A stretch of 64,000 nt of DNA from Labilithrix sp. GTDB taxonomy: Bacteria; Myxococcota_A; Polyangia; Polyangiales; Polyangiaceae. Positions 15,174 to 25,956 of the stretch are shown here, one piece after another (positions within the stretch are counted from its first letter, which is position 1; each line of letters starts with the position of its first letter). The translations under genes and the position numbers were made by a program. The DNA is taken from assembly GCA_019637155.1 (NCBI GenBank), contig JAHBWE010000014.1:62001-126000 (forward strand), given 5' to 3'. The notes under the pieces are model-generated. The model was not told the DNA's origin and made no database searches. It saw only the letters and a list, made by a program, of their open reading frames with translations.

Positions 15174-17081
15174 CTAGAGAAGCGCTCGCACGTCGTCGCC
15201 GGGCTTCATCGTGCGCTCGACGAAGATGCGGTCCCAGAGCTCGAGCCACAAGAGCGCCCAGAGACGATGCGTGTGCTCCGCCGTCGCGTTGGTGTGCTCG
15301 CGGATGAGCCGCTCCACCTCCGCGCGCTGGAACCAGCCCTTGCCGACCAGGTTGCCGTTCGGCAGCGTGCGGCGGAGGAGCGGCGCCATCTCCTTGCGGA
15401 GCCAGTGCTTGAGCGGGAGCGAGAAGCCCTTCTTCGGGCGGTAGATGACCTCCCACGGCAGGTAGCGCTCGGCGAGCTTCTTCGGCAGGTACTTCTGCAC
15501 GCCGCCTTTGACCTTGAGGCGCGGATCGAGCGCGCTCGCGAGGGCGCAGAGATCGGTGTCGAGGAACGGCGAGCGGAGCTCGAGCGCGACCTTCATCGAC
15601 GCGACGTCCACCTTCACGAGGTAGTCGTTCGGGAGGCGGTTCATCAGCACGTGGTAGAGGTTCTGGTCGAGCACGTTGAGGCCCGCCATGTCGTCGGCGT
15701 GCCGCTCGTAGACGTGCCACGGGCGATGAGCGCCGAGCGACGCGCGGAAGCTGTCGGTGTAGAGCGCGTCGCGCTGGCGCTGGTTGAACGCCATCGAGTA
15801 GCCGTGGCGTCGCGAAGGACCCGGCGACGCGTGGGTCGCGAGCGTCTTCGCCTTCTGGAGGACGCCGCGGCGCTCCTTCTCGAAGAGCCAGTCCTCGAAG
15901 AGCCGTCGCGGGAGGCGCGGCGCGAAGCGGTCGTACGTCATCGCGTGGTAGGAGGCGCGCGCGATGTCGTAGCCGCCGAACTGCTCGTCGCCGCCGTCGC
16001 CGGTGAGGGCGACCGTCACGAACTGCCGCGCCGCCTTCGACACGTAGTAGGTCGGCACCGCTGACGAGTCGGCGAAGGGCTCGCCGTACTCCCACACCAG
16101 CGGCGCGAGCACCTCGAGGACGTCGGGCTTGAGGCGGATCTGCTCGTGCTCCGTGCGGTAGCGCTTCGCGACCGCGTTCGCGTACTCGAGCTCGGAGAAG
16201 TCCTGCTCCTCGAAGCCGATCGTGAAGGTCTTCACCGGCTTCGACGAGAGCTCGCTCATCATCGCGACGACGAGGCTCGAGTCGACGCCGCCGCTGAGGA
16301 ACGCGCCGAGCGGCACGTCCGCGACCATGCGCTTCCGCACCGCCTCCTTCAGCGTCGCGTCGATGCGCTCGATCGCCTCCGCCTCGCTGATCCGGATCTT
16401 GTCGCGGAAGTCCGGCTTCCAGTAGCGCTCGGTGCGGGTGCGCTCCCGCGTGACGACCATGAAGCTCGCGGGCTGGACCTTCTGGACCTCGTTCCAGATC
16501 GTGTGCTCGGTCGTGACCGCGAGGTGGTGGAGGTAGCAGTCGATCGCGGCGTGGCTCACGGTGAGGCGCGCGTCCGGGAGCGACCAGATCGCCTTCGCGT
16601 CGGAGGCGAAGCGGAGCGTGTCGCCCTCGCGCTGGTAGTAGAGGGGCTTCTTGCCGAAGCGATCGACGGCGAGGAGGAGGGACTCCTTCTTCGTGTCCCA
16701 GATCCCGATCGCGAACATGCCGTCGAGGCGCGCGATCACGCCTTCGCCCCAGACCGCGTAGCCGTGGGCGATGACCTCGGTGTCGGAGTGAGAGCGGAAG
16801 GCGCAGCCCCTCGCCTCGAGCTCCTTGCGGAGCGTCGCGAAGTTGTAGATCTCGCCGTTGAACGTGACCCAGACCGTCTCGTCGTCGTTCGGCATCGGCT
16901 GATGCCCGAGCGGGGAGAGATCGATGATCGAGAGGCGGCGATGACCGAGCGCGACGTGCCCGGAGATCCACTCGCCCCCGTGATCGGGGCCGCGGTTCGT
17001 CATCACGTCGCGCATCGTGACGAGCTCAGATGCAGAGACGGGGCGTCGGTCGAAGTGTACGATACCGCAGATAGCGCACAT
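15174..17081 (-). CDS. Asparagine-synthetase-like glutamine amidotransferase of the polysaccharide locus
   Basis: 635 residues. After Met, C2 in MCAICGIV is the N-terminal nucleophile of the glutaminase domain; RGPDHGG, FNGEIYN and the arginine region complete it. The synthetase domain has the pyrophosphate loop FLSGGVDSS (261-269) and TGDGGDEQFGGYD. It would hydrolyse glutamine and transfer ammonia to an adenylated carboxylate. Paralogues in exosortase-A loci (amidotransferase 1, TIGR03108-like, from memory) are thought to amidate uronic acids or attached acids. Its start codon is interlocked with the opposite-strand ATG at 17080, so the fusion gene next to it is divergently arranged. True asparagine synthesis remains possible but context argues against it. 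Confidence 0.9.
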   Translation of the reverse strand: MCAICGIVHFDRRPVSASELVTMRDVMTNRGPDHGGEWISGHVALGHRRLSIIDLSPLGHQPMPNDDETVWVTFNGEIYNFATLRKELEARGCAFRSHSDTEVIAHGYAVWGEGVIARLDGMFAIGIWDTKKESLLLAVDRFGKKPLYYQREGDTLRFASDAKAIWSLPDARLTVSHAAIDCYLHHLAVTTEHTIWNEVQKVQPASFMVVTRERTRTERYWKPDFRDKIRISEAEAIERIDATLKEAVRKRMVADVPLGAFLSGGVDSSLVVAMMSELSSKPVKTFTIGFEEQDFSELEYANAVAKRYRTEHEQIRLKPDVLEVLAPLVWEYGEPFADSSAVPTYYVSKAARQFVTVALTGDGGDEQFGGYDIARASYHAMTYDRFAPRLPRRLFEDWLFEKERRGVLQKAKTLATHASPGPSRRHGYSMAFNQRQRDALYTDSFRASLGAHRPWHVYERHADDMAGLNVLDQNLYHVLMNRLPNDYLVKVDVASMKVALELRSPFLDTDLCALASALDPRLKVKGGVQKYLPKKLAERYLPWEVIYRPKKGFSLPLKHWLRKEMAPLLRRTLPNGNLVGKGWFQRAEVERLIREHTNATAEHTHRLWALLWLELWDRIFVERTMKPGDDVRALL

Positions 17082-20000
17082 GAACGGGGACGCGATTAGA
17101 GGAGCCGGAGAGGCGCAGGTCAACGTTGCACCTTCCACCTCGACGGGGACGTCGCCGTCGACGCGGCCGACGCCGCGCGGGACGAGCGCGTCGGTGCGGC
17201 CGACCGCGTTCAACGCGCCGTCCGAGGCGCGCCTCACCTTCGCGCTGATCGAGGACGTCGCGCAGCTCCACGCGATGGCGGACGACTGGGCCGCGCTGCT
17301 CGAGCGCAGCCTCACGAACGAGCTCACGCTGCACCCCGACTGGATGCTCACGTGGTGGGACGTGTTCGGCACGACGGGGGGGCGCGCGCTGCGCAGCGTC
17401 GCGTTCTATGACGGCTCGAGCCTCGTCGGCCTCGCGCCGCTCCTCGCGCGGAAGCACAAATACAAGTTCGGCCTGCCGTTCCGGCGCCTCGAGCTCCTCG
17501 CGTCGGGCGAGGACGAGATGGACGAGATCGCGTCCGACTACATCGGCCTCGTCGTCGAGCGGGGCTACGAGGCCGCGGTGGCGGCCGCGTTCGCGAGCGC
17601 CCTCGAGGCGGGCGAGCTCGGGCCGTGGGACGAGCTCGTCCTCCCGGTGATGAACGGCGACTCGCCGCTGCCGGGCCTCATCCGCGACGAGCTGAACGCG
17701 CTCGACGTGCCGACCACGCTCGAGGAGCGAACGGTGTCGCCGTACATCCCGCTCCCGCCGACGTGGGAGGAGTACCTCGCGCTGCTGAAGCCGAGCAAGC
17801 GCTCGCAGCTCCGGAAGTCGCTCCGTCTCCTCGAGTCGTGGTCGGGCGGCACGCTCGCGATGGAGCGCGTGCGCAGCGCCGACGAGCTCGAGGACGGCAA
17901 GCGCATCCTCGAGCGCCTCCACCGCGAGCGCTGGGGCGGCGACGGCGTCTACCGCTCCGATCGCTACCGCGCGTTCCACGACCGCATGATGCCCAAGCTC
18001 CTCGAGCTCGGCGCGCTCGACCTCGGGTGGATGAACGTCCGCGGCGAGCCGGTCGCTGCATATTACAACCTTCGCTGGAAGCGGCGCGTCGGCTTCTACC
18101 AGGCGGGGCGCAAGCTGAACGTGCCGGAGGACGTGCGCGTCGGCGTCACGATGCACGCGCTCCTCATCCGCAGCGCGATCGAGCGCGGGATGACCGAGTA
18201 CGATTTCCTCGCCGGCACCTCGCAGTACAAGATGGCGCTCTCGCTCAAGCAGCACCCGCTCGTGACCCTGCGCGCGGCGCGTCCGTCGATGGTCGAGACC
18301 GCGCGCCGCGCGACGGAGGAGGCGAAGCGCATCCGCGACGTCGCGGCGGCGCTCACCGGCGAGCCGATCCCGGAGGCGGAGGAGAGCGATCCCGTCCTCG
18401 AGACGACGGAGATCTCGATCGTCACCCTCGGCGCGCACGGCCTCGACGACAGCGTGCGCCCGTTCTTCTTCGGGAAGGAGCCACGCAGCCTCTTCGGCTG
18501 GTACCACCCGTCGCGCGCGACGATCTCGCAGCGGCGCGCGGTCGTGATCGCCCCGCCGCTCGGCTACGAGAACATCTGCGCGTACCCCGCGATGCGCGCG
18601 ATGGCGGAGCGCCTCTCCGACGCGGGCTACCCGGTGCTGCGCTTCGACTACGACGGCACCGGCGACTCCGGCGGCGCCGACGCCGATCCCGGCCGCGTCC
18701 GCGCGTGGATCGACAGCGTCGGCGACGCGATCGATCAGGCGCGCGCGCTCTCCGGCCTCGACGAGGTGTGCCTCTTCGGGATCCGCATGGGCGCGACGAT
18801 CGCCGCCGCGGCGGCGGCGGAGCGCGGCGACGTCGAGCGCCTCGTCTTGTGGAACCCGTGCGCGACGGGACGCGCCTACGCGCGCGAGATGAAGATGTTC
18901 CGCCAGTACGCGGAGTCGACCGGCGAGCTCCAGACGCGCCCCAACGCACTCGCCGACGGCGACGAGGAGTCGGGCGGCTTCCTCCTCACGAAGGAGACGC
19001 TCGCGGACCTCAAGAAGCTCGACCTCGCGAAGATCGACAAGCGTCCCGCGGGGCGCGTGCTCGTGCTCGGCCGCGACGACGTGCCCGACGACGACAAGGT
19101 CGCGCGCGCGTTCGAGGCGCTCGGCGCGGTGACGACGTACGAGAAGCCGGCGGGCTACGCCGAGATGATGGTCGCGCCGCACAAGTCGGTGTTCCCGGAG
19201 CAGGTGTGGAATCGCTTCCGCGACTGGCTCGGCGAGGCGAAGCCCGCGCTGCTCGAGTCGCCGCGCGCGCGCCCGGCCACGACCGCGCGCAAGGAGGGCA
19301 TCGTCGCGCCCGGCGTCCGCGAGGAGTCGATCCGCTTCGGCGTCGCGGACGCGCTGTTCGGCATCCTCTGCGAGCCGATCGACCAGGAGCTCTCGCGCGG
19401 CAAGCCGCTCATCATCTTCACGAACACGGCCGGCAACTACCGCATCGGCCCCAACCGCATGTACGTCGAGATGGCGCGGAAGCTCGCCGGCCTCGGCATC
19501 GCGTCCGTGAGGATGGACGTCTCCGGCATCGGCGACAGCACGATCTACGAGCAGGAGGAGCTGAACCATCCGTACGGCGATCAGCTCGCGAAGGACGTCC
19601 GCTCCTGCGTCGCGTACTTCACGCAGCGGGGGCGCGCGAAGAGGTTCGGCGTCGCCGGGCTCTGCTCGGGCGCCTTCGTCGCCTACCACGCCGCGCTGCA
19701 GGAGCCGCTCATCGAGAGCATCACCCTCATCAACCCGCAGACGTTCGTGTGGGAAGCAGGGATGTCGCTCGAGGTCAACGCCCTCTCGCGGCGCGACGCG
19801 GCCGAATACTACAAGCGCCGGATGTTCTCGAAGGAGGCGTGGGCGAAGCTGCTCAAGGGCGGCGTCGACCCGCGGCACGCGTTCGGCGCGGTGAAGGGAC
19901 GCGTCGCCGACGCCGCGCGCTCCGGCATCGCGAAGGCGAAGGCGGCGATGCCGGGCGCCGCGTCGCGCGGGAGCGAGCTCGCGCGCGCGTTCGACGCGCT

Positions 20001-20220
20001 GTGCGAGCGCGGCGTCGACGTGCACATCGTCTTCGCCGCGAACGACCCCGGCATCGTGAACCTGCACGAGAAGCTCGGCGCGAGCCTCCGCGCCCTCGAA
20101 AAGCGCCCAAACTTCAAGGTCGACACGATCGAAGGCCCGGACCACTCCTTCACCCCACTCTGGGCGCAAGAGGAGCTCGACAAGGTCCTCGTCGGTCATC
20201 TCACGAGCCGCTACCGCTGA
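17080..20220 (+). CDS. FemAB-like acyltransferase fused to two exosortase-A-type alpha/beta hydrolases
   Basis: 1046 residues if read from ATG 17080; GTG 17189 is an alternative and the first 40 residues look unstructured. Residues about 45-440 resemble CelD/FemAB GNAT-type transferases (HPDWMLTWWDVF, KPSKRSQLRKSLR, YDFLAGTSQYKMALS). Residues about 450-730 are an alpha/beta hydrolase whose elbow reads GIRMG, with R569 in place of the nucleophile. Residues about 745-1046 are a second hydrolase with GLCSG, putting C862 at the elbow, and H1022 in GPDHSF. These three are normally separate genes in PEP-CTERM loci (FemAB, hydrolase 2, hydrolase 1, recalled). The fusion implies that they work on one substrate. 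The last 10 bases overlap the convergent cupin gene. Confidence 0.88.
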   Translation: MNGDAIRGAGEAQVNVAPSTSTGTSPSTRPTPRGTSASVRPTAFNAPSEARLTFALIEDVAQLHAMADDWAALLERSLTNELTLHPDWMLTWWDVFGTTGGRALRSVAFYDGSSLVGLAPLLARKHKYKFGLPFRRLELLASGEDEMDEIASDYIGLVVERGYEAAVAAAFASALEAGELGPWDELVLPVMNGDSPLPGLIRDELNALDVPTTLEERTVSPYIPLPPTWEEYLALLKPSKRSQLRKSLRLLESWSGGTLAMERVRSADELEDGKRILERLHRERWGGDGVYRSDRYRAFHDRMMPKLLELGALDLGWMNVRGEPVAAYYNLRWKRRVGFYQAGRKLNVPEDVRVGVTMHALLIRSAIERGMTEYDFLAGTSQYKMALSLKQHPLVTLRAARPSMVETARRATEEAKRIRDVAAALTGEPIPEAEESDPVLETTEISIVTLGAHGLDDSVRPFFFGKEPRSLFGWYHPSRATISQRRAVVIAPPLGYENICAYPAMRAMAERLSDAGYPVLRFDYDGTGDSGGADADPGRVRAWIDSVGDAIDQARALSGLDEVCLFGIRMGATIAAAAAAERGDVERLVLWNPCATGRAYAREMKMFRQYAESTGELQTRPNALADGDEESGGFLLTKETLADLKKLDLAKIDKRPAGRVLVLGRDDVPDDDKVARAFEALGAVTTYEKPAGYAEMMVAPHKSVFPEQVWNRFRDWLGEAKPALLESPRARPATTARKEGIVAPGVREESIRFGVADALFGILCEPIDQELSRGKPLIIFTNTAGNYRIGPNRMYVEMARKLAGLGIASVRMDVSGIGDSTIYEQEELNHPYGDQLAKDVRSCVAYFTQRGRAKRFGVAGLCSGAFVAYHAALQEPLIESITLINPQTFVWEAGMSLEVNALSRRDAAEYYKRRMFSKEAWAKLLKGGVDPRHAFGAVKGRVADAARSGIAKAKAAMPGAASRGSELARAFDALCERGVDVHIVFAANDPGIVNLHEKLGASLRALEKRPNFKVDTIEGPDHSFTPLWAQEELDKVLVGHLTSRYR

Positions 20221-20651: not shown

Positions 20652-22346
20652 ATGAACCGACCGCCTGGAGGCTCCACCCGTCCTCCGCAGCTCTCGCGGC
20701 CGCCGCCCGACCGCAACCAGCTGCAGGCCCGCGTGCGCGCGCAGTTCGGATCGATCGTCGGATCGATGCCGTCGCTCGGCCGCCCGACCCAGGAGCTCGG
20801 GCCGCAGTTCGACGAGCGCGAGCTCCTCCAGGACGACTACCTGAAGACGACCGTTCGCCTCATCGCGTTCGTGTTCGGCCTCTCGCTCTTCGCGTGGATC
20901 GCGACGAGCACCACCTTCGACGCGCCCGGCATCTGGGCGAACTCGTTCCGCTTCGACACCGCGCTCGTGGTGGTGTGGGGCCCGCTCCTCATTTGGGCCC
21001 TGCGCCGGCTCCGGGTGAAGAACGCGGTCCGCATCTACCTCGTGCTCGCGCTCTTCATCGAGCCCTTCAGCGAGACGATGATGAAGGGCCAGGGCGACGG
21101 CTACTGGGACTCGTACATGTGGCCCGCCGCGGTCGCGTATTACGGCACGATCAAGGAATGGAGCGGGATGCCGGGCGCGTCGCTGCCCGTCTTCTTCTTC
21201 GTCACGGTCGGGCTCCTCTACCGCGCGGTCTGGGGGAAGAAGTCCGGCGACTACATCGCGCCGCCGAAGTGGTCGCGCACGATCTACTTCGTCTTCATGG
21301 GCGGCGTGCTCGCGCTGTGCGTCTGGGGCCTCATCCACGGCGGCTCGTTCCAGTCGGAGGTGCGGCAGGTCCTCCACCTCTTCCAGCTCCCGATCATCGG
21401 CCTCCTCTTCCTCTACGCGCTCCGCGTCCCCGAGGACGTCCCCGCGATCGGGACGATCTTCGTCGCGACCGCGATGCTGCGCGGCGTGCTCGTCTTGTGG
21501 ATCTACTTCGGCGTGTTCGTGCCGGCGGGGATCACCCAGCGGCCGGGGCATCCGGAGTGGTGCACCACCCACTCGGACTCCGTCCTCTTCGTCATGGGGA
21601 TCCTCATCGTCGTGCTCCACGCCTTCGAGCAGCGAACGAAGCGCACGATTTACCGCGCGATCGGCATCTCGGCCTTCCTCCTCCTCGCGATGGCGTTCAA
21701 CAACCGCCGCCTCGCGTTCGTCAGCCTCGCGATCGCGCCGGCCGCGATCTACATCGCGCTCAAGCCGAGCAAGCGAAAGCGCCGCGTCACGACCGCCCTC
21801 GCGATCGGCATTCCGCTCCTCCTCGGTTACGTCCTCGTCGGGTCGGAGATCAACTCGCCGAGCCCGCTCCTGAAGCCGGCGAAGCTCGTGATGTCGGTCC
21901 TCGAGCAGAAGGACACCTCGAGCCAGTCGCGCGACATCGAGAACGAGAACCTGATCTACACGTTGCGCGAGAACGTCCTCGTCCCGACCGGCTTCGGCTC
22001 CGAGTACCAGTATTCGCCGAACAACCCGCCCGTCGACCTCACCGACGTGTTCGTGAACTACCGCCTCATCGCGCACAACGGCGTGCTCTGGCTCTGGTCC
22101 CTCGGCGGCGTGGTCGGCTTCACGGTGCTCTGGCTCATCTTCCCGATCACGGGCACGCTCGCCTTACGCGCCTACCGCAGCGCCCCCACCGCGCTCGAAC
22201 GAAGCGCGGCCCTGACCTCCTTCGGCAGCGTCGCCGTCTGCATCGTCCAGATCTGGGGCGACCAGGGCGCCAACGGCTACATGACCCCGGTCACGATCGC
22301 CGTCTCCTACGCCATCGCGACCCGCCTCGCGATGCGCACGGCGTAG
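20652..22346 (+). CDS. O-antigen polymerase/ligase-like membrane protein (second copy)
   Basis: 564 residues. A proline-rich cytosolic leader of about 70 residues precedes ten or more membrane helices. The family signature region is NNRRLAFVSLAIAPAAIY (arginines after a helix) and, later, LVPTGFGSEYQY with YRLIAHNGVLWLWSLGGVVGF, which corresponds to the Wzy_C histidine segment. It is less like the protein encoded at 4558-5976 than that one is like textbook members, so the two probably have different acceptors: one may polymerise and the other ligate. Last recognisable gene of the polysaccharide region. Confidence 0.8.
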   Translation: MNRPPGGSTRPPQLSRPPPDRNQLQARVRAQFGSIVGSMPSLGRPTQELGPQFDERELLQDDYLKTTVRLIAFVFGLSLFAWIATSTTFDAPGIWANSFRFDTALVVVWGPLLIWALRRLRVKNAVRIYLVLALFIEPFSETMMKGQGDGYWDSYMWPAAVAYYGTIKEWSGMPGASLPVFFFVTVGLLYRAVWGKKSGDYIAPPKWSRTIYFVFMGGVLALCVWGLIHGGSFQSEVRQVLHLFQLPIIGLLFLYALRVPEDVPAIGTIFVATAMLRGVLVLWIYFGVFVPAGITQRPGHPEWCTTHSDSVLFVMGILIVVLHAFEQRTKRTIYRAIGISAFLLLAMAFNNRRLAFVSLAIAPAAIYIALKPSKRKRRVTTALAIGIPLLLGYVLVGSEINSPSPLLKPAKLVMSVLEQKDTSSQSRDIENENLIYTLRENVLVPTGFGSEYQYSPNNPPVDLTDVFVNYRLIAHNGVLWLWSLGGVVGFTVLWLIFPITGTLALRAYRSAPTALERSAALTSFGSVAVCIVQIWGDQGANGYMTPVTIAVSYAIATRLAMRTA

Positions 22347-22348
22347 CG

Positions 22349-23293
22349 TCAGCGCGTGGGTTTCTTGGCCCTCTTCGGGCGGGCCCTTCGCAGCTTTCCC
22401 GAGGCCGCCGCTTTGCGTCGCGCCTCGACCGCGGCGGCGATCTTCTCGATCTCCGCGTTGGTGGCGCCGAGCCGCGCGGCCGCTGCCTGCGGGCTCTTCT
22501 TCCACTCGGCGTAGAACGCGCGAAGGCAGGCGCGGAAGGGACCTGCCGATACGGCGGCCTCTCGGTCCATCTCGGGAAGCAGGGTGATGAGACCGATGAG
22601 GGCGCCGAGCTGCCTGAATCGCGCCTCGAGGAGACGCGGCCGGCCGACGCCGTCGAGGCGGAAGAAGACGATCGTGACCTTCGCTCGGAGCTGCGTCGCC
22701 GCGGTCGCGGTGGGGTTGGGTATCGGTATGACGCCATTCCAACCAATCGCGTGCTCGGGGTCGACGTCGAGCGCTCCGAGCGGAAAGAGCAGGAGAGGTC
22801 GTTCGGTCTTGTTGAGCGCCGCGATGTGCTGGCGATCGGCGCCGGACGCGACGCCCGCTGCGAGCGCGATGGGGAAGCGATTGCCCTTCAGCGTCGAATT
22901 GCACGTGTAGCAGGAGACGACGTAGTTCCACGGCGAGAAGCGGAGCTCGTCGTATCCGTTCGCGTGGCCGTTGAAGACGACCTTCGGGTCGATCCCATAA
23001 TGGGCAAATCGCTCGAGCGAGAAGCGGTCGGGCCAACGGGCAGTGATGCCCTTGGGCCGAAAGTGCTCGACCGCAAACTCGCCGTCGTTCTCGGCGGGCG
23101 CGGTGTCGGCGTCGGTGATCTCGGAGCGGATGAAATCGCGAGCGCCCTCGCAATAGGCGCATAGCTCCGACTGGAGCGCGAGGTACGCCGCCTTGATATC
23201 GGACCAGCTCTTCTTCTTTTTCGCGTGCCAGTCAGGCGCGATGTTCTCGATCGTCTTCCGGAGAGCGGCTTCCGTGACTCCGATGCGGATCAC
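22349..23293 (-). CDS. ptuB: HNH endonuclease, PtuB-like (Septu defence)
   Basis: 314 residues from GTG 23293, overlapping the ATPase stop by four bases (GTGA). The nuclease core has C45/C48 in LCAYCEG, E76-H77 in FAVEHFRPKG, and C128/C131 in SCYTCNSTLKGNRFP, i.e. a zinc-bound HNH fold. The pattern CxYCE ... EHFxPK ... CxxCN ... K..FP is that of PtuB in Septu systems, from memory. Partnered with an SMC/OLD-like ATPase it is expected to cut nucleic acid on phage infection. The C-terminus is rich in Arg, Lys and Ala. An alternative is another ATPase-HNH pair, such as retron-associated ones, but no retron elements were seen. Confidence 0.75.
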   Translation of the reverse strand: MIRIGVTEAALRKTIENIAPDWHAKKKKSWSDIKAAYLALQSELCAYCEGARDFIRSEITDADTAPAENDGEFAVEHFRPKGITARWPDRFSLERFAHYGIDPKVVFNGHANGYDELRFSPWNYVVSCYTCNSTLKGNRFPIALAAGVASGADRQHIAALNKTERPLLLFPLGALDVDPEHAIGWNGVIPIPNPTATAATQLRAKVTIVFFRLDGVGRPRLLEARFRQLGALIGLITLLPEMDREAAVSAGPFRACLRAFYAEWKKSPQAAAARLGATNAEIEKIAAAVEARRKAAASGKLRRARPKRAKKPTR

Positions 23294-24531
23294 ACGAGCT
23301 CTCCGGCGAGAGCTCGCATCAAGTCGTGGGCCGCTTTCTTGTTGCCCTTCGAGGCTTCGAAGGCGAGGTCTTCGACTTTGTTGGTCGTCTCGGCGTTCCG
23401 TACGCTCGGGAGCTCGAAGATCGGAGAGAGCAGGATCTGGTCGGCGCTCTTCCCGAACAGATCGACGTCGGGAACGCTCACCGTCATCCCGCTCCTGCTT
23501 CGTTCCATCGTCCGGATTTGCTCGCGCCCGAGGCCACCGGCGACGAGAGGACTGTGGGTCGTAAATACGAATTGCAGCCGCGGGAAGGTCTTTGCGAGCT
23601 TGTCGATGATGACGCGCTGCCAGCGCGGATGGAGGAGGAGGTCGACCTCGTCGACGAGCACGAGGCCCTCCGTCTCTACCAACTTGTGACCTGTTTTGAC
23701 GCCTTTGACGACGTGGTAGAGGAGATCGGTGAGCCAGCCGAAATAGCCACGATAGCCGTCGGAGAGCGCGTGAAAGGGCACCTCTGCTCCGTGCTGGTGG
23801 AAGACGAGCTCGCCGCCTTGGGCGAGGATGTCCTCTCGCACGCTGAGCTCCTCGTCCGGTGGGCCAAGACGGCGAATCAGGGTCGAGACCTGCTTGAAGC
23901 GACCCGGGTTGCGGGCGCACAGCTCCGGAAGCCACGCGTCGGGCGGTACCAGCGTGAACGCGGCTTCGTCCTCGAGCAGGGAAGCGACGCGCTGATGACG
24001 CGGTAGTCGTTCGGCGTCGCGACCGGAGCGGTCCATGCGTTTCGAGAGCTCGCTCCACCGGCGCGAGCCGTACGCGACGATGAAGATGCTCGACGAGTCG
24101 TGAGCGTCGAGGACCTGCCGATAGGTGGAGACGGGCACCCCGCGCAGCTTCACGCCACCGAGCTTGTCGCGGCGTGTACCGCCGAGCGGCATGATGGTCT
24201 GGTGGATCTTGGCGGACTTGGCGCCCTCCCTCGGCCCGAGCTCACCGCGCGTGAAATGAGCGACGGCCGACACCGAGGCTGGCTCTGTCCTCTTGCCGAC
24301 GCGACGCACGAGCGAGTAAGGCGAATAGCTCGAGTCCTTGAGCGTCTCGCTCAACATCGCGAGCGCGATCGCCTTGAGGACGGTGGTCTTTCCGGCGCCG
24401 TTCTCGCCGAGCAGCAGGGTGACGTTGTCCGGTCCGTTCTTCGGTTTGACCGTCGCGCCCGGATGCATGAAGTCCACGGCCGCCTTCGAGAAACATCGCA
24501 GGTTGCGGATCTCGAGCCGTGAGACGTACAT
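23290..24531 (-). CDS. ptuA: SMC/OLD-like AAA ATPase, PtuA-like (Septu defence)
   Basis: 413 residues. Walker A is GENGAGKTT (42-50) after the usual LEIRNLRCF start; the signature-like ALSDGYRG, Walker B LVLVDEVDLLLHPRWQ and switch histidine in FTTHSPLVAGG follow. It is an ABC-class ATPase of the AAA_15/AAA_21 type without a long coiled coil, as expected for PtuA. It would sense infection and license the HNH nuclease. Its gene lies 29 bases after the WYL regulator on the same strand and overlaps the nuclease, making a three-gene operon. Size is at the short end of PtuA proteins. Confidence 0.8.
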   Translation of the reverse strand: MYVSRLEIRNLRCFSKAAVDFMHPGATVKPKNGPDNVTLLLGENGAGKTTVLKAIALAMLSETLKDSSYSPYSLVRRVGKRTEPASVSAVAHFTRGELGPREGAKSAKIHQTIMPLGGTRRDKLGGVKLRGVPVSTYRQVLDAHDSSSIFIVAYGSRRWSELSKRMDRSGRDAERLPRHQRVASLLEDEAAFTLVPPDAWLPELCARNPGRFKQVSTLIRRLGPPDEELSVREDILAQGGELVFHQHGAEVPFHALSDGYRGYFGWLTDLLYHVVKGVKTGHKLVETEGLVLVDEVDLLLHPRWQRVIIDKLAKTFPRLQFVFTTHSPLVAGGLGREQIRTMERSRSGMTVSVPDVDLFGKSADQILLSPIFELPSVRNAETTNKVEDLAFEASKGNKKAAHDLMRALAGELV

Positions 24532-24560
24532 GTGCCAGTTCTACTACGTTTCCTAGCGCG

Positions 24561-25202
24561 TCAGAGGTCGGGGACGATGACCTCGGCCTTCTCGATGCGG
24601 TCGAGGCGGAACTGGCGCTCTTCGTTCTTCGCGAGGTCGATCGCGTTGAGGCGGGTCTCGGTGCGTTCCATGAAGACGGAGGTGATCTTGATGTCGCGCG
24701 TCGTGCGCTCGTAGTTGGCGCTGCGGTACGTGATGCGGAGCGGCTGCTGCTCGAACCACGCGCGCTCGACCGCCGCGCGCACCGCGCGGGCGACCGGGAG
24801 CTGGGGCACGCCGGCGAACTGCAGCTCCTTCAAGCGCCCCGCGAGCTCGCGCTGCGCCGAGGTCGAGAGCGCGCCGCGAACCTTGTCGAGGGCGCGGTCG
24901 AGCGTCTCGGTGAAGGGGAGGAGGCGCATCTCCGTCGCGAAGCGGCCGAGCGCGACGAGGAGCGCGGCCTCGCGCGCGGTGAAGTTCACCGGCGGCAGCG
25001 TGTAGCGCGTGTCGAGCGCGTAGCCGCCGCCGCGACCGCGCTCGGCCGAGAGCGGGAGCGCCGCCGCGCGGAGCGAGTCGAGGTCGCGGTAGATGGTGCG
25101 CACCGTGACGCCGAACTTCTCCGCGAGCTGCTCGGCGGTGATGCCGGTCCGCCGCGCGCGCAGGTGCTCGGCGAGCGCGAAGAGCCGTTCGGTGCGGGTC
25201 AC
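24561..25202 (-). CDS. HTH/WYL-type transcriptional regulator
   Basis: 213 residues from GTG 25202 (TRTERLFALAEHLRARR), preferred over an upstream TTG-like extension to 25229 because it starts the HTH domain. The HTH_11 part reads ITAEQLAEKFGVTVRTIYRDLDSL, then GGYALDTRYTLPPVNFT of YafY-type regulators. The C-terminal domain ends in RQFRLDRIEKAEV as in WYL proteins, but the tripeptide Trp-Tyr-Leu is replaced by Thr-Arg-Leu in ETRLNAIDLA. WYL proteins often regulate phage-defence operons or bind nucleic-acid ligands. Placement upstream of the ATPase/HNH pair suggests the same here; it may instead control the divergent NUDIX gene. Confidence 0.88.
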   Translation of the reverse strand: MTRTERLFALAEHLRARRTGITAEQLAEKFGVTVRTIYRDLDSLRAAALPLSAERGRGGGYALDTRYTLPPVNFTAREAALLVALGRFATEMRLLPFTETLDRALDKVRGALSTSAQRELAGRLKELQFAGVPQLPVARAVRAAVERAWFEQQPLRITYRSANYERTTRDIKITSVFMERTETRLNAIDLAKNEERQFRLDRIEKAEVIVPDL

Positions 25203-25212
25203 CGCCGAATCA

Positions 25213-25230
25213 TGACATCCACCTGACATC
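25213..25230. promoter_or_regulatory. Tandem TGACATC repeat between divergent regulator and NUDIX genes
   Basis: TGACATC occurs at 25213-25219 and again at 25224-25230, an 11-base period that puts both copies on the same face of the helix. They lie just upstream of the WYL-type regulator start and within 50 bases of the NUDIX start. This is a candidate operator for the regulator; binding is inferred only from position and spacing. Confidence 0.45.
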
Positions 25231-25278
25231 GAGTCGAGCCGGTTGACGTCGTGGGGCGGGCGGGAGATCGTCCGCTCG

Positions 25279-25956
25279 GTGCCCTTCTCGTATCCTTATC
25301 CGCGGCCCGCGGTCACGTGCGACACCGTCGTGTTCACGATGCGCGGCGACGATCTCGCCGTCCTCCTCATCCAGCGGGGCGACGAGCCCTTCAAGGGACA
25401 CTGGGCGCTGCCCGGTGGGTTCGTGAACGAGAACGAGGCGCTCGACCGCGCGGCGGCGCGCGAGCTCGCGGAGGAGACCGGCCTCACCGGCGCGCGGCTC
25501 GAGCAGATCGGCGCGTTCGGCGATCCCGGCCGCGACCCGCGCGGGCACACCGTGACGATCGCGTGGGCGACCTTCCTCGTCGCGGAGGCGAAGGTGACGC
25601 CCGCGGACGACGCGGCGCTCGCCGAGTTCGTGCCGCTCCGCACGATCGTCATCGAAGGGGCCGCGACGCGGCGGCGGCCGATCCGGCTCGCGTTCGATCA
25701 CGCGAAGATCCTCGCGAAGGCCTACCGCCGCCTCTGCCGCCACCTCGACGATCCGGTCCGCGACCGCTCGTTCGATCTGTTCCCGAGCCGCTTCACGATC
25801 GCCGAGCTCCAGCACCTCTACGAGCGCATCCTCGGCAAGACGGCGCCGCTGCGGGCGTTCAAGAAGCAGCTGCTCGACCGCGGCCTGGTCATCCCTGCGA
25901 CGACCAAGCCGACGAAGAAACCGGCCGAGCAGCTCTATCGCTGGAACCGGCGCTGA
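25279..25956 (+). CDS. NUDIX hydrolase with C-terminal winged helix
   Basis: 225 residues from GTG 25279, with GGGAGA 12 bases upstream; a TTG at 25243 would add 12 residues. The NUDIX box is GGFVNENEALDRAAARELAEETGL in outline (G-x5-E-x7-REL-xEE-xG), with its core REL-AEETGL around residues 60-72. The C-terminal part (FTIAELQHLYERILG ... FKKQLLDRGLV) is the winged helix seen in NrtR-like and related ADP-ribose-type NUDIX proteins. It may hydrolyse an ADP-ribose derivative, regulate NAD metabolism genes, or both. It stands divergent from the WYL-type regulator, and its stop abuts that of sodB. Confidence 0.88.
   Translation: MPFSYPYPRPAVTCDTVVFTMRGDDLAVLLIQRGDEPFKGHWALPGGFVNENEALDRAAARELAEETGLTGARLEQIGAFGDPGRDPRGHTVTIAWATFLVAEAKVTPADDAALAEFVPLRTIVIEGAATRRRPIRLAFDHAKILAKAYRRLCRHLDDPVRDRSFDLFPSRFTIAELQHLYERILGKTAPLRAFKKQLLDRGLVIPATTKPTKKPAEQLYRWNRR

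Follow-up and report, generated by a model that had tools for sequence, protein, structure and literature searches.

The closest described systems are the Septu defence pairs, in which PtuA and PtuB form an ATPase-nuclease pair and both activities are needed (excerpts of PMC13096335). Septu EcB88 and the retron Eco7 are reported to target tRNA-Tyr, and the pair from ATCC 25922 to target nicked DNA (excerpts of PMC13096335; PMC11555353). Regulators with a WYL domain have been published as repressors of BREX and CBASS (excerpts of PMC9122601; PMC9122588), and the BrxR family is described as combining a winged helix-turn-helix (wHTH) domain, a WYL domain, and a C-terminal dimerisation domain (PMC9122601, in part). 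The word Septu occurs in neither of these last two papers, and a full-text search for Septu together with WYL returned, in the text it covers, no publication linking a WYL regulator to Septu.

Here, we propose with high confidence that the 64,000-nucleotide stretch of Labilithrix DNA analysed (the window) carries an intact Septu type I pair, gained by horizontal transfer and lodged between two genes of the backbone, one for a WYL regulator and the other wzy, and that the WYL regulator is no component of the system. The features of the locus are as follows.

20652 to 22346, plus strand: Wzy-type exopolysaccharide polymerase, the convergent flank (NCBIfam Wzy_EPS, Pfam Wzy_C)
22347 to 24560, no strand: segment most simply read as inserted, from the Wzy stop codon to the WYL stop codon, holding ptuAB plus 2 and 29 non-coding bases
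22349 to 23293, minus strand: ptuB, the HNH nuclease of Septu, 314 aa from a GTG start (PADLOC PDLC00318)
23290 to 23293, minus strand: four-base overlap GTGA of the ptuB start and the ptuA stop, read directly
23290 to 24531, minus strand: ptuA, the ABC-type ATPase of Septu, 413 aa (PADLOC PDLC00301)
24561 to 25202 (longest frame to 25229), minus strand: regulator with HTH_11 and WYL domains, 213-222 aa (Pfam)
25243 to 25956, plus strand: Nudix hydrolase with an NrtR winged-helix domain, divergent to the WYL gene (Pfam)

The order of regulator, ATPase, and HNH nuclease on the minus strand, as described in an earlier note on this DNA, is present in the window sequence, and the strong family matches of all three frames argue that none is a chance reading. 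The note had also described the genes as overlapping, which holds for ptuA and ptuB (4 bases) but not for the WYL gene and ptuA, which are separated by a gap of 29 bases. The WYL gene product matches Pfam HTH_11 (1.5e-14) and WYL (2.1e-10), and its start is likelier at 25202 (GTG, codon 10) than at 25229, since its relatives align mostly from residue 8-10. Of the flanking genes, the Wzy frame matches NCBIfam Wzy_EPS at 3.6e-72, which is below the cut-off of that model, and Pfam Wzy_C at 3e-8, while the Nudix neighbour matches Pfam NUDIX (2.3e-19) and NrtR_WHD (3.4e-11). Beside wzy, the window also encodes (17017-20220) a protein of 1067 aa in which a GNAT-type acetyltransferase domain is combined with alpha/beta-hydrolase stretches.

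The Septu identity proposed earlier for the ATPase and the nuclease is confirmed by family models, sequence matches to solved structures, and fold comparison. A search with the PADLOC models, the check that the note had suggested, matched PtuA to PtuA1 (PDLC00301) at E 4.7e-117 over residues 1-410 and PtuB to PtuB1 (PDLC00318) at E 2.4e-43, rather than to unrelated families. In a sequence search of the PDB, PtuA matched the solved PtuA 8ee4 at E 8.7e-26; PtuB had no match by sequence in either Pfam or the PDB. AlphaFold models of the two proteins (mean pLDDT 79.8 and 80.9) gave as the top PDB fold match of PtuA the E. coli Septu entry 8eea (E 2.6e-21), and as the first nine fold matches of PtuB chains of PtuAB or retron I-A complexes (best E 1.6e-4), on which the PtuB model superposes loosely (best TM 0.37/0.52).

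The motifs are intact: K48, D294, E295, and H326 of PtuA are invariant in a 14-sequence alignment, and C45, C48, E76, H77, N123, C128, C131, and N132 of PtuB are kept in a 13-sequence alignment, with H77, N123, and the four cysteines invariant. By their motifs, from which we take the Walker and HNH naming, K48 is likely the Walker A and D294/E295 the Walker B residues, with H326 of PtuA and C45, C48, H77, N123, C128, and C131 of PtuB likely to be catalytic. The naming also follows mutants described in PMC13096335 (excerpts).

The locus agrees with Septu type I in both proteins and their folds, in the catalytic residues, and in the order and overlap of the genes, and ptuA is directly followed by ptuB with no reverse transcriptase, the neighbours being the WYL and Wzy genes. 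It differs in sequence, the best of the solved E. coli PtuA chains being 22-23% identical to the window PtuA and the solved PtuB-type chains only 14-17% identical to the window PtuB, while nearer relatives are found in other phyla (34-43% for PtuA and 26-35% for PtuB). In all 21 close-subfamily loci compared, ptuB adjoins ptuA. The four-base overlap is common to 11 of the 16 loci compared, the window included, which suggests that translation of ptuB is probably coupled to that of ptuA. The two genes are a complete and intact Septu type I pair and a divergent member of that type.

Because both proteins match the models and structures of PtuA and PtuB from retron Ec78, and the effector PtuAB of retrons Eco7/Ec78 has the same two folds, the pair might instead be read as the effector of a retron (Septu type II). 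We consider this barely credible, as the scores against the retron-specific models fall far under their cut-offs (135.5 against 500 bits and 33.4 against 150 bits) and, unlike those retrons, the window pair has no reverse transcriptase (ptuC) among its adjacent genes, which are Wzy, WYL, and Nudix. In addition, no Rfam match occurs anywhere in the window and an msr-msd was not found.

If ptuA and ptuB are a Septu type I pair, is the WYL regulator part of it? Its placement, read in the earlier note as one operon, invites the view that the three genes evolved as one defence operon under a dedicated regulator comparable to BrxR or CapW: the genes share a strand, the gap is 29 bases, no terminator was found between them, and the published repressors of BREX and CBASS offer a precedent. 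The regulator has the HTH and WYL domains in common with the BrxR/CapW repressors. However, it is shorter (213-222 aa), it lies on the same strand as the genes downstream, it has no conserved link to Septu, and it lacks their C-terminal dimerisation domain, the WYL match ending at residue 217 of 222 and the frame only five residues beyond. A structure of CapW is in the PDB. BrxR is also represented there (PMC9122601, in part), and a PDB search at E 0.01 found no sequence similarity of the regulator to either, its sole relative being PafBC (E 2e-4), which speaks against a dedicated regulator. With HTH-WYL regulators of the YafY/PafBC type it shares HTH_11 and WYL, although the PafBC match is a protein of 664 aa with two matched stretches and the window regulator a single short chain.

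The distribution of the regulator also bears on the question. When 108 genomes from the same family were searched, 77 had the WYL protein at E 0.001 or better, and 37 of the 108 (own genome included) hold a copy 48-100% identical over nearly the whole length, the next matches being 34-37% identical. Neither PtuA nor PtuB occurs at any of the 29 best loci of WYL orthologues outside its own genome (about 1.5 kb on each side, E 1e-8; the Septu genes were the defence genes looked for), so that every one of these 29 orthologous loci speaks against a dedicated Septu regulator. The divergent NrtR-like Nudix gene stands beside the WYL gene in 7 of the 29, and the divergent WYL-Nudix pair (24561-25956 in the window) is conserved within the genus, with a gene for superoxide dismutase adjacent. 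The regulator may have a putative link to NAD or ADP-ribose metabolism.

A survey of other Septu loci for an adjacent WYL gene, as the note had recommended, gave no support for the association. Among 377 genomes of the phylum, PtuA (PDLC00301, E 1e-30 or better) was found in 26 and the window PtuB (P0001) was matched at E 0.001 in 7, own genome included in both counts. We compared 49 PtuA places in 29 phylum genomes (45 from the PDLC00301 search and 4 from another search) with 101 WYL places: a WYL gene lies within 20 kb of PtuA at the window only, the other 48 places having none and the next nearest being 20.0 kb away, although contig ends may hide some. A scan of genome contigs returned nothing with a single PtuA sequence and 80 loci with a PtuA alignment. 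Ten same-strand frames upstream of ptuA relatives in other phyla include no WYL gene; eight match Pfam above cut-off, all to different families (penicillin amidase, Tle1-like lipase, DUF1501, xylose-isomerase-like, DUF3226, glycosyltransferase 9, FAD synthetase, and solute-binding protein). Of the other two, the first matches photolyase below threshold and the second matches nothing. Of the upstream frames of three further relatives (L061, L062, L176), only that of L062 has a Pfam match above cut-off. WYL is also not among the 25 commonest Pfam families listed for upstream genes of Septu loci (sets of 86 and 54 proteins), although a lone case would escape such a listing. A home-made WYL profile found none but missed two other WYL genes of the genome to which the window belongs and is not relied on. 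Five plasmid records (Rhizobium, Agrobacterium, and Sphingobium) hold one WYL gene, which is located past ptuB on the other strand and diverges from a CBASS cyclase, as has been described for CapW (PMC9122588, in part). A search of 50,697 phage records at E 1e-15 returned no match.

Other features of these loci deserve mention. A gene for a DUF2235/Tle1-like phospholipase adjoins ptuA in three alphaproteobacterial loci (L164:4527-5840, L248:3777-4883, and L249:3783-4931), two of them on plasmids and in both orientations, with proteins 41-57% identical; it is possibly an accessory gene of this Septu subfamily, to which the three loci belong. A patatin-like protein is encoded downstream of ptuB in one locus (L173:8341-9003, by eye) and upstream of ptuA in another (L176:4082-5962, PF01734 at 25.5 bits, just under the cut-off), and direct repeats of about 40 bases in at least three copies follow close behind the ptuB stop codon in a third (L061, minus strand, below about 7021). 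The idea that the subfamily has a conserved third gene ahead of ptuA was rejected, the upstream frames coming from differing families (L166 and L168 left out). Tight spacing behind host genes was set aside as a pattern and no claim is drawn from it.

What, then, does the site look like in relatives of the organism? In three genomes of the same genus (G054, G058, and G059), the order superoxide dismutase, NrtR-like Nudix, WYL, and Wzy is kept without Septu, with identities to the window of 89-91% for WYL and 68-72% for Wzy, and the distance from the WYL stop codon to that of Wzy is 91, 80, and 21 bases, respectively, against 2214 bases in the window. Elsewhere in the genus, WYL is followed by a different gene. 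Given this empty site in three relatives and a window interval that holds only ptuAB with 2 and 29 bases, ptuAB is most simply an insert, whose ends can be placed only to within the spacers, since these diverge. The G+C content at third codon positions (0.824 for ptuA and 0.841 for ptuB, against 0.934-0.985 in six neighbours) fits a foreign origin. An ancestral Septu at this site, lost in the relatives, is possible in principle, but the single occurrence and this lower G+C speak against it. A target-site duplication was considered and discarded, as CTGACGC (7 bases) is present at each end, yet a shared word of that length is also found in 15% of random pairs of windows with matching lengths.

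The empty sites, the Septu-free orthologues, and the single association among 49 places together lead us to reject the WYL regulator as part of the Septu system, contrary to the earlier note, and leave the dedicated-regulator reading very improbable. The regulator is an old chromosomal backbone gene with no part in Septu, and its adjacency to ptuA is a coincidence of place.

Insertion behind a resident gene nevertheless bears on expression. The note had named a terminator behind the regulator as evidence against a joint operon; none was found in the spacer between WYL and ptuA, leaving that objection without a basis, and the four terminator-like sites that the scan reported (1.7 expected) are without exception on the opposite strand. 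With no terminator found in the 29-base spacer, read-through from WYL into ptuA is possible, and Septu may be transcribed from the WYL promoter; such joint transcription, if any, would be a side effect of where the pair was inserted. A further reading, compatible with insertion and adding a transcription step to it, is that Septu inserted by chance and later came under the WYL promoter, so that its level would follow the control of the WYL gene. In keeping with this, only about 20 bases of the spacer (by eye) are unlike the spacer of the relatives and it contains no promoter match. However, the promoter scan was for the sigma-70 consensus only, and a TA-containing stretch resembling a -10 element stands immediately ahead of ptuA in several PtuA relatives (by eye), making an own promoter possible. 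We hold promoter capture as a tentative suggestion, less likely than its absence. A bolder version, that a Septu pair carrying almost no DNA of its own is read through from a resident gene, with a PafBC-like WYL regulator as its accidental control gene, we regard as unlikely. If it were true, and if the WYL protein is autoregulated or stress-sensing, one insertion event would have been enough to give Septu a new trigger.

On the preferred reading, how might the pair act? The ptuAB genes would have been acquired horizontally and inserted into the short convergent WYL-wzy spacer of a Labilithrix-like myxobacterium. The ABC-type ATPase PtuA most likely assembles with PtuB and would restrain the nuclease until phage infection, upon which PtuB would cut nucleic acid, either DNA or host tRNA, and halt phage production. 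Host tRNA and DNA are putative targets here, each having been reported for different PtuAB pairs of E. coli.

Our findings also carry a caution, that regulator-defence "operons" read from a single genome can mislead: here adjacency, spacing, and strand all fit, yet the relatives show an empty site. In turn, a new divergent Septu pair whose insertion site can be clearly seen is useful for understanding how bare defence pairs move and get expressed.
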